This document shows positions 1,954 through 37,368 of a DNA stretch of 64,000 bases, in pieces. Numbering within the stretch: position 1 is the first letter of the stretch; each line of letters begins with the position of its first letter. The translations under genes and the position numbers were made by a program. The stretch is from Candidatus Tectimicrobiota bacterium (GTDB lineage: Bacteria > JACPUC01): positions 175,975-239,974 of the forward strand of contig JACPUC010000029.1 of NCBI GenBank assembly GCA_016192455.1. Direction: 5' to 3'. The notes beneath the pieces were generated by a model. That model was not told where the DNA came from, made no database searches, and saw only the letters and a program-made list of their open reading frames with translations.

Positions 1954-2568
1954 ATGCCAGACGGCTGGTGGTCGATCATCGTGCTCCCCTTCATCAGTGC
2001 GGTCATCGGCTGGATCACCAATCTGCTGGCCATTACCATGCTCTTCCGGCCGCGCACCCCGCGGCGGATTCTGTGGTGGACCCTCTGGGGGCTGCTGCCG
2101 CGGCGGCAGGCGGAGCTGGCGCGCAGCATCGCCGCGGTGGTCTCCGATGAGCTGCTGTCGCAGCGGGATGTCGCCGAATTCCTGAAACAGAGCGCCGCTC
2201 ATAAGCACCTGCGCACGGTCCTCCAGGAGCGCCTCGACGCCGTCCTGGAGGAGAAGCTCGGCGCGCTCCTCCCCATCATCATCAGGTACCTGTCGTCGGA
2301 CTTTCATAGCAAGATCAAGGAGGCCATCGGCGAGGTGGTCGATCCGGTCATCTCTTGGTTCATCACCAAGGCGGCCGAGAACTTCGAGGAGGTGGTCGAT
2401 TTCCGCGCCATCGTGGAGGAGAAGGTGAACACCTTCGACCTGGCTGACCTCGAGCGCCTGGTGCGCCAGGTTGCCGGCCGGGAGCTGCGCTCGATCGAAT
2501 ACTTCGGGGGTGTCCTGGGTTTCCTCATCGGCTGGGTGCAGGTGCTGGTGCTGGCGCTGTCGCGCTGA
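1954..2568 (+). CDS. DUF445 family membrane protein
   Basis: A 204-residue protein. A hydrophobic N-terminus contains the motif IGWITNLLAI, typical of DUF445 (YheB-like) proteins. An amphipathic, charged middle region follows, and a C-terminal transmembrane helix (GVLGFLIGWVQ) repeats the N-terminal theme, as it does in the family. The start is supported by GAGGA a few bases upstream of ATG 1954. The family is widespread, is membrane-bound at both ends and has no settled biochemical role, so no function is assigned. It stands alone between the peptidase and the acyl-CoA ligase. Confidence 0.85.
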   Translation: MPDGWWSIIVLPFISAVIGWITNLLAITMLFRPRTPRRILWWTLWGLLPRRQAELARSIAAVVSDELLSQRDVAEFLKQSAAHKHLRTVLQERLDAVLEEKLGALLPIIIRYLSSDFHSKIKEAIGEVVDPVISWFITKAAENFEEVVDFRAIVEEKVNTFDLADLERLVRQVAGRELRSIEYFGGVLGFLIGWVQVLVLALSR

Positions 2569-2864
2569 GCCATTCGCCATGGAGTCGGTGATCGGGACCC
2601 TGGGCCGCCGCGCCGCGCCCCGCCGAGGCTGGCCACGGAGAAGCTCTCGATGGTAGGATGGGAGACCGCGCTGCCGCAGTCCCCCCAGTCTCTCCATGCC
2701 GCGCGGAGACCGCGGGACGGTCGGCGCTGCCGCGCGCTGAGGACGCCCCCTTCGCGCCGCGCCTGCAGCCGAGACCCTCGAAGGCGGCGGCCGCTTGGTT
2801 CGGCGAACAACGCCGCGACGCACTTGGAACCCTCGTTGCCTGCTGGTGCAAGGAGAAACGAACG

Positions 2865-4436
2865 ATGCTCCTCGGTGATATCCTGGCGCGGCACAGCCGC
2901 GTCATGCCGGCGAAGGTGGCGCTCATCTGCGGCGAAGACCGGGTGACGTGGGGGGAGCTTGAGCAGCGCACGACGAAGCTGGCCCAGGGGCTGCTGCAGG
3001 CGGGGTTCCGGCGCGGCGACAAGATTGCCATCGTGCTGCGCAACCGCATCGAATACCTCGAAACCCTCTACGCGCTTGCCAAGGCCGGCATGGTGGCGGT
3101 GATCCCCAACAGCAAGCTGAGCGCCGCCGAGCTCTGCCACCTGTTGAACGAGGCGGAGGCGCTGGCCGTGGTGACGGAGCCGAGCTTCGACGCGAAGGTC
3201 GCCGAGATGCGCCCGGGTTTTCGGACCATCGAGACGATCATCGGCGTCGATGGCGCCGGCGGCGCGGAGCGCGAGTTGGGCGAGCTGCGGGCGCGCGCGC
3301 CGGAGGGACCGCTGCCCTATCGCCCCAACGAGAACGACCACCTGCTCCTGCCGTTCACCAGCGGCACCACCGGGCTGCCCAAGGGCGTCATCCTCACCCA
3401 CAAGAACGCCTGCGCCGGGGCGATGACCCAGCTCATCGCCAAGGGGTTCCGGGCCGATGACCTGGGCTTCCTCGTCAGCCCCCTCTTCTTCGTTGGGCCG
3501 CTCTGCGGCAGCGTCGGCGCCCTGATGCTGCGCGGCTGCACGCTGATCCTCCTCGACTTCGAGGTGCAGCGTCTTCTCGAAACCATCCAGCGGCACGGCG
3601 CCACCACGGGGTCCCTCGTGCCGAGCATACTGCGGCGCGTGGTGCTGCATCCCGCCGTAGGTCGGTATAACCTCGGCAGCTTGCGCTCCGTCTTCACCTC
3701 AGGGTCGCCGGTTCCCCTCGACATGCTGCGCCACGCCCTGGAGGTGCTGGGGCCGAAGATTCAAACCGGCATGGGGATGACGGAGACGAGCTCGAACGGC
3801 GCCCTGCTCACGGAGGAGGAGGTCGTCGAGGCCACCCGCCAGCGCGGACCCGACGCACCCTCCCTCTGCGCCATCGGCGCGCCGATGTGCGGCATGGAGG
3901 CGACCCTCCTGAAGGACTCGGGGGAAGAGATTCCCTTCGGCAGCGACGAGGTGGGGGAGATCGCCTTGCGCGGCGACAGCGTCATGGTGGGCTACTGGAA
4001 GCAGCCGGAGGCGACCGCGGAGGTCCTCAGCCCCGACGGCTGGCTGCGCAGCGGCGACCTTGCGTTTCGCGATGCGCGCGGCTGGCTGCACATTGTGGAC
4101 CGCAAGAAAGACATCATCATCAGCGGCGGCATCAACATCACCCCGAGCGAGATCGAGATGTGCCTCGCCGAGCACGAGGCGGTGGATGAGGCCGTGGTGA
4201 TCGGCGTGCCGGACGAGCGCTGGGGCGAGACAATCAAGGCCATTGTGGTGCGCAAACCCGGCGCCCACTGCACCGCCGAGGACCTCATCGACTTCTGCCG
4301 CCGGCGCCTGGCCTCCTACAAGAAACCGACCTCCGTCGACTTCACCGATGAACTGCCGCGCAGCGCCACCGGCAAGGTGCTGAAGCGCACCCTGCGGGAA
4401 CGCTACTGGGGCAGCCGCCGCGAGCAGGTGTCGTAG
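2865..4436 (+). CDS. AMP-dependent acyl-CoA synthetase/ligase
   Basis: A 523-residue ANL-superfamily enzyme that would activate a carboxylic acid to its acyl-AMP and then its CoA thioester. The P-loop-like motif TSGTTGLPKG is at residues 165-174. Later come GYW, SGDLAF, DRKKDIIISGG (hinge region) and a C-terminal SATGKVLK containing the catalytic Lys. Length is normal for medium/long-chain or aryl-CoA ligases. The start is ATG 2865, preceded by AGGAGA at 2851-2856; the frame stays open about 200 bases further upstream, but that extension is not protein-like. The substrate cannot be read from sequence. It faces the minus-strand catabolic cluster tail to tail. Confidence 0.92.
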   Translation: MLLGDILARHSRVMPAKVALICGEDRVTWGELEQRTTKLAQGLLQAGFRRGDKIAIVLRNRIEYLETLYALAKAGMVAVIPNSKLSAAELCHLLNEAEALAVVTEPSFDAKVAEMRPGFRTIETIIGVDGAGGAERELGELRARAPEGPLPYRPNENDHLLLPFTSGTTGLPKGVILTHKNACAGAMTQLIAKGFRADDLGFLVSPLFFVGPLCGSVGALMLRGCTLILLDFEVQRLLETIQRHGATTGSLVPSILRRVVLHPAVGRYNLGSLRSVFTSGSPVPLDMLRHALEVLGPKIQTGMGMTETSSNGALLTEEEVVEATRQRGPDAPSLCAIGAPMCGMEATLLKDSGEEIPFGSDEVGEIALRGDSVMVGYWKQPEATAEVLSPDGWLRSGDLAFRDARGWLHIVDRKKDIIISGGINITPSEIEMCLAEHEAVDEAVVIGVPDERWGETIKAIVVRKPGAHCTAEDLIDFCRRRLASYKKPTSVDFTDELPRSATGKVLKRTLRERYWGSRREQVS

Positions 4437-35526: not shown

Positions 35527-35805
35527 TTGGAATGCGTAACCATCAAGCAGGGTAGTAACTGTCAGTTCATGGTGAAGACCGGTTGCTGCTTCAACGGCGG
35601 CCAGTGTCACCCCATCGTCGAGAAGTGCGAAGGCTGCGCCCACATTCAGGACCTTCCCTCCGGCCGGTACTGCGATACCTACGCCCATCCTGCCATTAAA
35701 TGGATGTATGGCGCCTGCAACTTCGCCACCCACATCCAGCCCGAGCAGAAGCAGGAAGCCAAGAAGCTGAACCCCCTGAAAGCTTCGAAACGGGGCATCC
35801 GCTAA
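35527..35805 (+). CDS. PxxKW family cysteine-rich protein
   Basis: A 92-residue protein starting at TTG 35527, with GGAGG nine bases upstream. Family members begin ECVTIKQG, which here follows the TTG directly, so the upstream ATG-initiated frame is unnecessary. Nine cysteines are spread through the chain ([22 protein letters not shown]), and the name-giving PAIKW motif lies near residue 60. The Cys pattern suggests metal or Fe-S binding in the cytoplasm; the function is unknown. The family is mainly known from anaerobic deltaproteobacterial-type genomes. Next to it lies the MetE-like selenoprotein candidate, on the opposite strand and convergent. Confidence 0.85.
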
Positions 35806-36031: not shown

Positions 36032-37159
36032 CTACGAGCCTTCTTCCCAGACCTGTCGCGCCGTCTGCGCCACCAGGCGCAGCTTCTCCTCCTGGTCCCG
36101 CGGCGAGAGGCGGTTGCCAAGCACCGAGCTGGCGAAGCCACACTGCGGACTCAGCGCCAGGCGCTCCAAGGGGATGTAGCGGCTCGCCGCGCGGATGCGC
36201 GCCGTCAGCTCCTCGGTGGTTTCCCGCCGCGGCGACTTCGTCGTCACCAGCCCCAGCACCACCACCTTCCCCTCCGGCACGTGGCGCAAGGGCTCGAACG
36301 ATCCCGAGCGCTCGTCATCGTACTCGAGAAGCAGGCGCTCGGCGCGGATGCCGCGAAAGATCGGCTCGGCGATCGGCTCGTAGCCGCCCGAGGCCAGCCA
36401 CCGGCTGGCCTGGTTGCCGCGTCAAAGGTGGAAGCCGAAGGTGACCCCCGCGGCCGCTTCGAGCACCGCGTTGTCCAGCTCGATCCCCTGGCGCAGCCAG
36501 CGCTCCACGCTCCAGCCCCGCCCTTCATAAAAGGGACGGGTGCGTGGATCGAGGAGCAAGGGGTAGTGCGGCGCGTCGAGTTGCAGGTAGCGCGCGCCGA
36601 GCTGCGCCAGCTCCGCCACCTCCTGGCGCAGCATGTCCACCACGTCGGCAAGAAAGCCCTCCAGCGTGGGGTAAACCCAGGTGGAGCGCTCCGGCGACCA
36701 GAAGTTCGCCCACAGGCTGGGGCTGGGCAGGGTGATCTTCGGCACCAGCGCGGTGCCGGCAAGGCACTCCCGAAAGGAGAGAAACTCTCCCGCCGACAGG
36801 GAGCGCCGGCGCCGCAGCCGACCGACCACCCCCAGCCCCGCCGGCCGCGGCGCGCGCCAGGACCCCACCTCGTTGCTCCCCTGCCAGTCACCCCAGACGA
36901 ACGCCTCCAGGCCGACCGGGCCGAACCCCTCGACGGCCTCCGTCATCTGGCTCTGGAAGGAGAGGCGGCGCATCTCGCCATCGGTGACGATCTCCAGCCC
37001 CGCCTCCTGCTGCAGGCGGATCGCCGCCTCGACGGCGCGGTCCTCCTCCGCCCGCAGCATCTCCGCGCTCAGCGTGCCGGCGGCGAAGGCTTGCCGCGCT
37101 TCTAGCAGCTCCGGGGGGCGCAGCAGGCTCCCCACCGTCTCCGCATGGGCGCTGATCAT
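36032..37159 (-). CDS. MetE-like (COG0620) methyltransferase with in-frame TGA at the zinc-ligand position: candidate selenoprotein
   Basis: A single reading frame of 376 codons contains one TGA, at codon 246 (36422-36424). Translation before it ends GVTFGFHL and resumes RGNQASRWLASGGYEP in the same frame. In cobalamin-independent methionine-synthase-like proteins this place is H(L/I)CRGN, where His and Cys bind zinc, so TGA replaces exactly the metal-binding Cys. The second Cys ligand is kept (SPQCGF, Cys340), and the rest of the family sequence is intact to the stop. A perfect hairpin follows the TGA (annotated as SECIS-like). The start is ATG 37159 with GGAGGGTGCC upstream. The expected activity is zinc-dependent (or Sec-zinc) methyl or alkyl transfer. 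A nonsense mutation or sequencing error is the alternative. Confidence 0.75.
36391..36411 (-). promoter_or_regulatory. putative bacterial SECIS element
   Basis: On the minus strand, 10 bases after the TGA, a perfect 9-bp stem forms: AGGCCAGCC, loop GGT, GGCTGGCCT. The loop begins 19 bases after the TGA and its first base is G. These values fall in the range generally described for bacterial SECIS elements (loop roughly 16-37 bases from UGA, with a G in the first two loop positions). No other hairpin this strong occurs near the TGA. In GC-rich DNA a chance hairpin is possible. Confidence 0.6.
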
Positions 37160-37368
37160 GGCACCCTCCGAAGTTCCGGTCGCGTCGCCTGGGCATCGTG
37201 CCGCCCAGGCTTGTTTCTTTCGCGCCTCTGCGGCACGATAGACGCGGCCAGCACCTGCCACTCGAGCGCGCTTCCATGTGCTGACGTGACGGCCACCTCC
37301 TCCATGGGGTCGCCGGGTGAGGGGAGTATCTTGTACGACGCCCAAGGACATTCGCAAGGAGACGCACC

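Follow-up and report, generated by a model that had tools for sequence, protein, structure and literature searches.

The window, a stretch of 64,000 nucleotides from a contig of Candidatus Tectimicrobiota bacterium (JACPUC010000029.1), carries a MetE-like gene on its minus strand. The gene was read as a single continuous frame whose sole interruption is a TGA at codon 246 (Table 1), as had been stated in a preliminary description made from the letters without database searches. Translation of the minus strand, which the preliminary description had left unnamed, gave around this codon ...TFGFHL-U-RGNQASRW..., and the Shine-Dalgarno sequence GGAGGG was rated good. The TGA had been placed on the cysteine of an HxC zinc motif, and alignment to Cys643 of MetE confirmed this position. 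Similarity had also been said to resume in the same frame past the TGA; when the window protein was compared with its nearest relative, L074, identity was 67% before the TGA and 75% after it. Conservation of the frame across the TGA is far beyond chance.

Table 1. Features of the MetE-like gene (positions of the window)
Feature	Position	Strand	Remarks
MetE-like selenoprotein gene	36032..37159	-	375 codons from ATG to TAG; Sec at the internal TGA (strongly supported); PF01717 and 13 TGA homologues
TGA codon 246 (Sec)	36422..36424	-	Aligned to MetE zinc ligand Cys643; HxC motif
Shine-Dalgarno-like GGAGGG, 5' of ATG	37164..37169	-	Sequence
Candidate bacterial SECIS hairpin	36392..36410	-	Core stem 36407-36395 CAGCC/GGCUG; apical loop GGU 36402-36400
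Ser11 codon	37127..37129	-	Homocysteine carboxylate; MetE Ser433 / MesD Ser22
Glu62 codon	36974..36976	-	Homocysteine amino group; MetE Glu484 / MesD Glu73
Asp195 codon	36575..36577	-	Homocysteine amino group; MetE Asp599 / MesD Asp188
His244 codon	36428..36430	-	Predicted zinc ligand; MetE His641; invariant
Glu279 codon	36323..36325	-	Predicted zinc ligand; MetE Glu665; invariant
Cys340 codon	36140..36142	-	Predicted zinc ligand; MetE Cys726; invariant

The Pfam model PF01717 (Meth_synt_2) matched the protein with 61.5 bits (cut-off 21). The best NCBIfam match, the generic methyltransferase model NF005085, scored 250 bits, below its cut-off of 313, and none of the named methionine synthase models reached its cut-off for the window protein. 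By these profile scores the protein is placed within the Meth_synt_2/MetE superfamily but outside every named family. The best solved relative by sequence was 1ypx from Listeria (1.1e-52), in which HICRGN aligns to HL(U)RGN and QCGF to QCGF. An AlphaFold model built with Cys at position 246 and without metal adopted the MetE fold (pLDDT 92.9, pTM 0.92), and its top fold matches in the PDB were 1ypx, the zinc-bearing MetE of T. maritima and MesD (3rpd), with E values of 1e-22 to 1e-13. Residues S11, E62, D195, H244, C/U246, E279 and C340 were invariant among 33 aligned homologues comprising both Sec and Cys forms; the reference residues were S433, E484, D599, H641, C643, E665 and C726 of MetE and Ser22, Glu73 and Asp188 of MesD (PMC7857596). 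The distance between Glu279 and C340, 61 residues, equals that between Glu665 and Cys726 in MetE. The earlier assignment of the TGA codon and of a later cysteine, C340, to zinc ligands holds by alignment to the MetE residues, C340 corresponding to Cys726. We infer a zinc site composed of H244, U246, E279 and C340, in which Sec246 would be bound to the metal.

Homologues were gathered by a genome scan and by phylum-wide searches, and codon 246 was then read in each of them. Apart from the window gene, 13 homologues from other genomes, with protein identities of ~60-70%, have TGA at the equivalent codon (L014, L031, L015, L029, L016, L017, L061, L074, L075, L076, L087, L088 and L090). The hosts belong to Methylomirabilota, to a 'Deltaproteobacteria' MAG and its phylum group, and to the phylum groups of an Acidobacteria MAG, of the bacterium G003 and of a Chloroflexia MAG; within the window's own phylum the search yielded one genome only. 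Other relatives, the nearest of them included, carry TGC or TGT (Cys), and neither TAA nor TAG was present at codon 246 of any homologue in which this codon was read. Around the HLCRGN motif, where the preliminary description had proposed a search of homologues for further TGA codons, the relatives are not all Cys forms. L014/L031 and L087/L088/L090 are near-copies, and about 10 of the 14 TGA rows are independent. Stops were counted by codon position: L051 and L103 each contain one TGA, located away from codon 246. In the tree, all TGA genes fall inside one clade of 30 rows (14 Sec, 16 Cys; SH-aLRT 100), on which at least four switches between Sec and Cys are needed. The TGT gene L091 branches within the group of near-identical TGA genes L087, L088 and L090 and looks like a recent change from Sec to Cys (TGA to TGT); the hairpin described below is weaker in this copy (-5.0 versus -7.7 kcal/mol in the three TGA genes), and its genome retains tRNA-Sec. 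In genome G298, a second, shortened MetE-like homologue of 103 residues (L136:10448-10759, minus strand) is found upstream of the full-length TGA gene; it may be a duplicate in decay or an artefact of the contig.

With the T of the TGA counted as 0, the candidate SECIS hairpin was defined as a 5-bp stem (17-21/25-29) with a triloop (22-24). The exact stem was fixed after inspection of the sequences, and the Cys genes were subsequently scored by the identical definition. All 14 TGA genes possess the 5-bp stem with a GGU or GUU triloop, the strongest version being that of the window gene (8 bp without mismatch, -15.5 kcal/mol). Beyond one position that is often mismatched, a further G-C or G-U pair occurs in 14/14 genes and another in 11/14; the sixth pair is unpaired in 9/14. 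The requirement for GU in the loop is known from E. coli fdhF. When the genes were shuffled synonymously according to the codon use of each, a hairpin with a GU loop was expected in 1.2 of the TGA genes and observed in all 14; for the Cys relatives, synonymous shuffling gave an expectation of 1.4, and 3 of 20 had the hairpin. After removal of near-copies the proportions were 10/10 for TGA and 2/16 for Cys genes (Fisher p = 1.2e-5, which serves as a guide only since the rows are related). This contrast stems largely from synonymous choice, arginine being encoded by CGG or CGT in Sec genes and mostly by CGC in Cys genes. The stem pairs hardly vary among the TGA genes and show little compensatory change. 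Folding of 51 nt by minimum free energy gave mixed structures, the fixed local hairpin test being decisive, and an Rfam search returned no relevant match and hence no SECIS match. The element is predicted to act as a bacterial selenoprotein SECIS, with a hairpin close after the UGA and G or GU in its apical loop.

The genes selA, selB, selD and tRNA-Sec, for which a search of the window's genome (G000) had been suggested, are all present. The gene for tRNA-Sec scored 75.5 bits (gathering score 47; ARAGORN anticodon tca), selA 596 bits (cut-off 268), the adjoining selB 366 bits (cut-off 242) and selD 389 bits (cut-off 125). The latter has an in-frame TGA of its own at the usual UxxK Sec site. 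SelD (L110, G000:C3:190907-191827) is itself a selenoprotein, with the TGA at a UAAK site followed by a GC-rich hairpin. Twelve of the 14 genomes with the TGA form yielded a tRNA-Sec, which was not found at the cut-off used in G298 and G1260. It was also detected in about 16 of 18 genomes with the Cys form; the machinery is therefore necessary but does not discriminate Sec from Cys forms.

A nonsense mutation, either in a decaying pseudogene or mimicked by a sequencing or assembly error for TGC or TGT, might be suspected because the sequence comes from one genome assembly, itself 88% complete, and because some close relatives encode Cys. Such an origin is hard to reconcile with the 13 other genes that share the TGA at this level of identity, with synonymous divergence near saturation, or with a hairpin specific to the TGA genes. 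Compared with the TGA homologues, the window gene had protein identities of 58-67% before the TGA and 58-75% after it, and dN was ~0.17-0.41 on both sides as compared with dS of ~1 or more (several values saturated). Pseudogene decay, which would have spoken against the preliminary description, was sought and none was found, dN lying far below dS on either side. As judged from these rates, purifying selection acts both before and after the TGA, as on a working gene, and its persistence downstream argues further against a nonsense codon. Pseudogene and sequencing error were both rejected given the conservation of the TGA across phylum-level groups; we regard them as very improbable. Insertion of Trp, Gly or Cys through an altered genetic code or general readthrough would likewise leave the frame open once the TGA is read as a residue. 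However, 10 of the 19 G000 genes checked use TGA as their normal stop, selA, egtD and glmS being among the ten, and a reassigned code was excluded for this reason. Moreover, one other internal TGA was examined, which is the known Sec site of SelD, and homologues align Cys in column 246, never Trp or Gly, so that this explanation, too, has hardly any likelihood. The substitution of Sec for Cys at the TGA, as originally supposed, is supported by the TGA homologues, the Sec machinery and the lack of decay. Decoding of UGA 246 in the window gene as Sec, and with it the status of a true selenoprotein, is strongly supported. Recoding to Sec in a MetE-like zinc enzyme we consider highly probable, a judgement that concerns the recoding and not the substrate.

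In the window no selenium or ergothioneine gene is adjacent to the MetE-like gene, and its neighbours (enoyl-CoA hydratase, DUF6811, DUF1848 and KefB-like) are not common to its relatives. The small, Cys-rich DUF6811 protein (118 bits; 35545-35802, plus strand) is encoded convergently with the selenoprotein gene. Elsewhere in the window an MtrC/MtrF-like outer-membrane multihaem cytochrome (PF22113; 27916-30387, minus strand) suggests extracellular electron transfer. Among the relatives, Sec or Cys members from three phylum-level groups lie near senA, senB, egtD and genes for betaine-type ABC transporters. In Methylomirabilota, L141 and L143 have the order egtD - metE(Sec) - senA - OpuAC betaine-type ABC transporter (in L141, EgtD 386 bits, cut-off 291; SenA 516 bits, cut-off 420); the neighbourhood of L140, from the same phylum, ends at the contig end. 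The gene metE(Sec) adjoins senA (519 bits) in L144, and in L134 senB (408 bits, cut-off 300) and a senA fragment at the contig end (375 bits) are located ~6 kb from it. L148 has its Cys form near both senA (523 bits) and egtD; that of L150 stands between egtD and a senA fragment at the contig end (195 bits, below cut-off), and that of L149 near egtD. In L158 a Cys form immediately follows MttB-like methyltransferase genes on their downstream side. When equal flanks of 1.5 kb were considered, egtD or senA occurred in six rows of the clade and in zero of the fetched rows outside it. The two MttB-like genes of L158 (721-2256 and 4826-6373; TIGR02369, below cut-off) enclose a peptidase-like gene, and a DddP/M24-like gene (2305-3621) is situated near the Sec form in L136.

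G000 itself carries egtD (372 bits) on another contig (C7:294733-298320; L236:14733-18320), followed by genes for an ABC ATPase and an OpuAC-permease fusion, whose identities to the senA-linked transporter of Methylomirabilota are 67% and 62%, respectively. Neither egtB nor senA adjoins this cluster, which looks like a betaine uptake system of the hercynine/ergothioneine type, and the part of the G000 genome that was read, ~47%, yielded no senA. The neighbourhoods of the relatives link part of the Sec/Cys clade with hercynine, selenoneine and ergothioneine metabolism.

The sequence strongly supports decoding of UGA 246 by SelB and tRNA-Sec, directed by the predicted hairpin that begins ~14 nt past it. 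The protein corresponds to the catalytic barrel of MetE-superfamily enzymes and lacks the folate-binding half of MetE, and Sec246 would take the place of Cys in the zinc site His244-Sec246-Glu279-Cys340 predicted by homology. Sec would bind zinc as a softer and more labile ligand that better withstands oxidation, and it might render this site faster. The role of the zinc would be to activate an acceptor thiol or selenol, most likely homocysteine because all three homocysteine-holding residues are kept; conversion of homocysteine to methionine is the likeliest reaction, to which we would give roughly an even chance. The folate half of MetE is missing, and therefore methyl-folate is not an obvious donor; judging by the neighbourhoods, a methyl-corrinoid, betaine or a methylated sulfur or selenium compound may serve instead. 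EgtD uses three SAM per hercynine, that is per histidine, and at this cost local regeneration of methionine would make sense. On the best reading, the protein would be a zinc-dependent methyltransferase that lacks a folate domain, has Sec as zinc ligand and acts on homocysteine (or on a thiol/selenol).

Alternatively, the protein could be a selenoprotein in which Sec246 is a redox or nucleophilic catalyst, e.g. a selenol accepting a methyl or alkyl group, rather than a zinc ligand. Redox chemistry is the role of Sec in most selenoproteins (PMC13188914), the neighbourhoods of the relatives are antioxidant-related, and zinc binding is here a prediction; yet neither Sec nor Cys forms vary at H244, E279 and C340, and the spacing of E279 and C340 matches MetE, which makes this role unlikely. 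The main alternative is compatible with recoding and concerns the acceptor, which would not be homocysteine: the enzyme would (de)methylate or de-alkylate a selenoneine/ergothioneine-pathway metabolite that contains selenium or sulfur. It draws on the gene order in L141 and L143, on metE(Sec) beside senA in L144 and 6 kb from senB-senA in L134, and on the Cys forms, flanked by senA and egtD in L150 and close to the two genes in L148. On the other hand, the three residues that would hold homocysteine (S11, E62 and D195) do not vary, many members from Chloroflexota are without such neighbours, and egtD of G000 lies on a different contig. We deem such an acceptor possible though short of probable. 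With similar reserve, a family of zinc-Sec methyltransferases may be envisaged in selenoneine/ergothioneine metabolism that makes, recycles or remethylates around a selenium small molecule and offers a natural case of catalytic Zn-Se(Sec) coordination.

Thioredoxin-like proteins and binders of Mo, W or Ni make up most of the known selenoprotein families. The MetE/Meth_synt_2 family is absent from the 119 families of prokaryotic selenoproteins inventoried in 2026 (PMC13188914), in keeping with the initial remark that it is missing from standard lists; the methyltransferases in this inventory are arsenite, MduS-like and DNA-repair types. Methionine synthase was not found in a 2022 review (PMC9312934) or in the deep-Sep paper (PMC12013277), nor did the literature searched describe a MetE-like selenoprotein as part of the selenoneine pathway. 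A MetE-like Sec family distributed over several phyla is apparently new to the literature, recent papers having been covered in part. The occurrence of Sec or Cys members near selenoneine/ergothioneine genes in three phylum-level groups is also new here. An enzyme of the MetE superfamily thereby joins the selenoproteins, with Sec predicted as ligand of the catalytic zinc, and a Sec protein becomes linked to the selenoneine pathway. If a role in selenoneine metabolism is true, selenium use in protein and in a small molecule would be joined in one pathway. The Sec and Cys forms, including L091 with its change from TGA to TGT, constitute a natural set for probing the role of Sec in zinc-dependent methyl transfer, and genes of this kind are likely annotated as truncated in several uncultured groups.

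Among known systems, 1ypx, a putative B12-independent methionine synthase of Listeria (PRK06520/PRK06233 group), resembles the window protein in length, fold and the HICRGN...QCGF motif but has Cys instead of Sec and is only ~26% identical. MetE has the catalytic barrel, zinc ligands and homocysteine residues in common with the window protein (375 residues), which lacks the N-terminal folate half and has Sec in place of Cys643; with 31.4 bits against a cut-off of 929.95 for TIGR01371 (MetE), the protein does not count as a folate-dependent MetE. MesD, one of the core (folate-independent) methionine synthases (PMC7857596), consists of a single catalytic domain like the window protein, and its Ser/Glu/Asp substrate residues align (3RPD). 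Membership of MesD, the Mes family compared, was set at more than ~30% identity, since Mes families share less than 30% with one another; identity to 3RPD was about 20%, which places the window protein, with its predicted Sec zinc ligand, outside MesD. The genes senA and senB (NF041186 and TIGR04348) belong to the biosynthesis of selenoneine, a selenium antioxidant, and adjoin the MetE-like gene in some relatives. Known bacterial selenoproteins are mostly redox proteins in the published list (PMC13188914), unlike the MetE-like protein; the exchange of UGA and Cys, the hairpin just past the UGA and a genome with SelABCD are features that they share with it.
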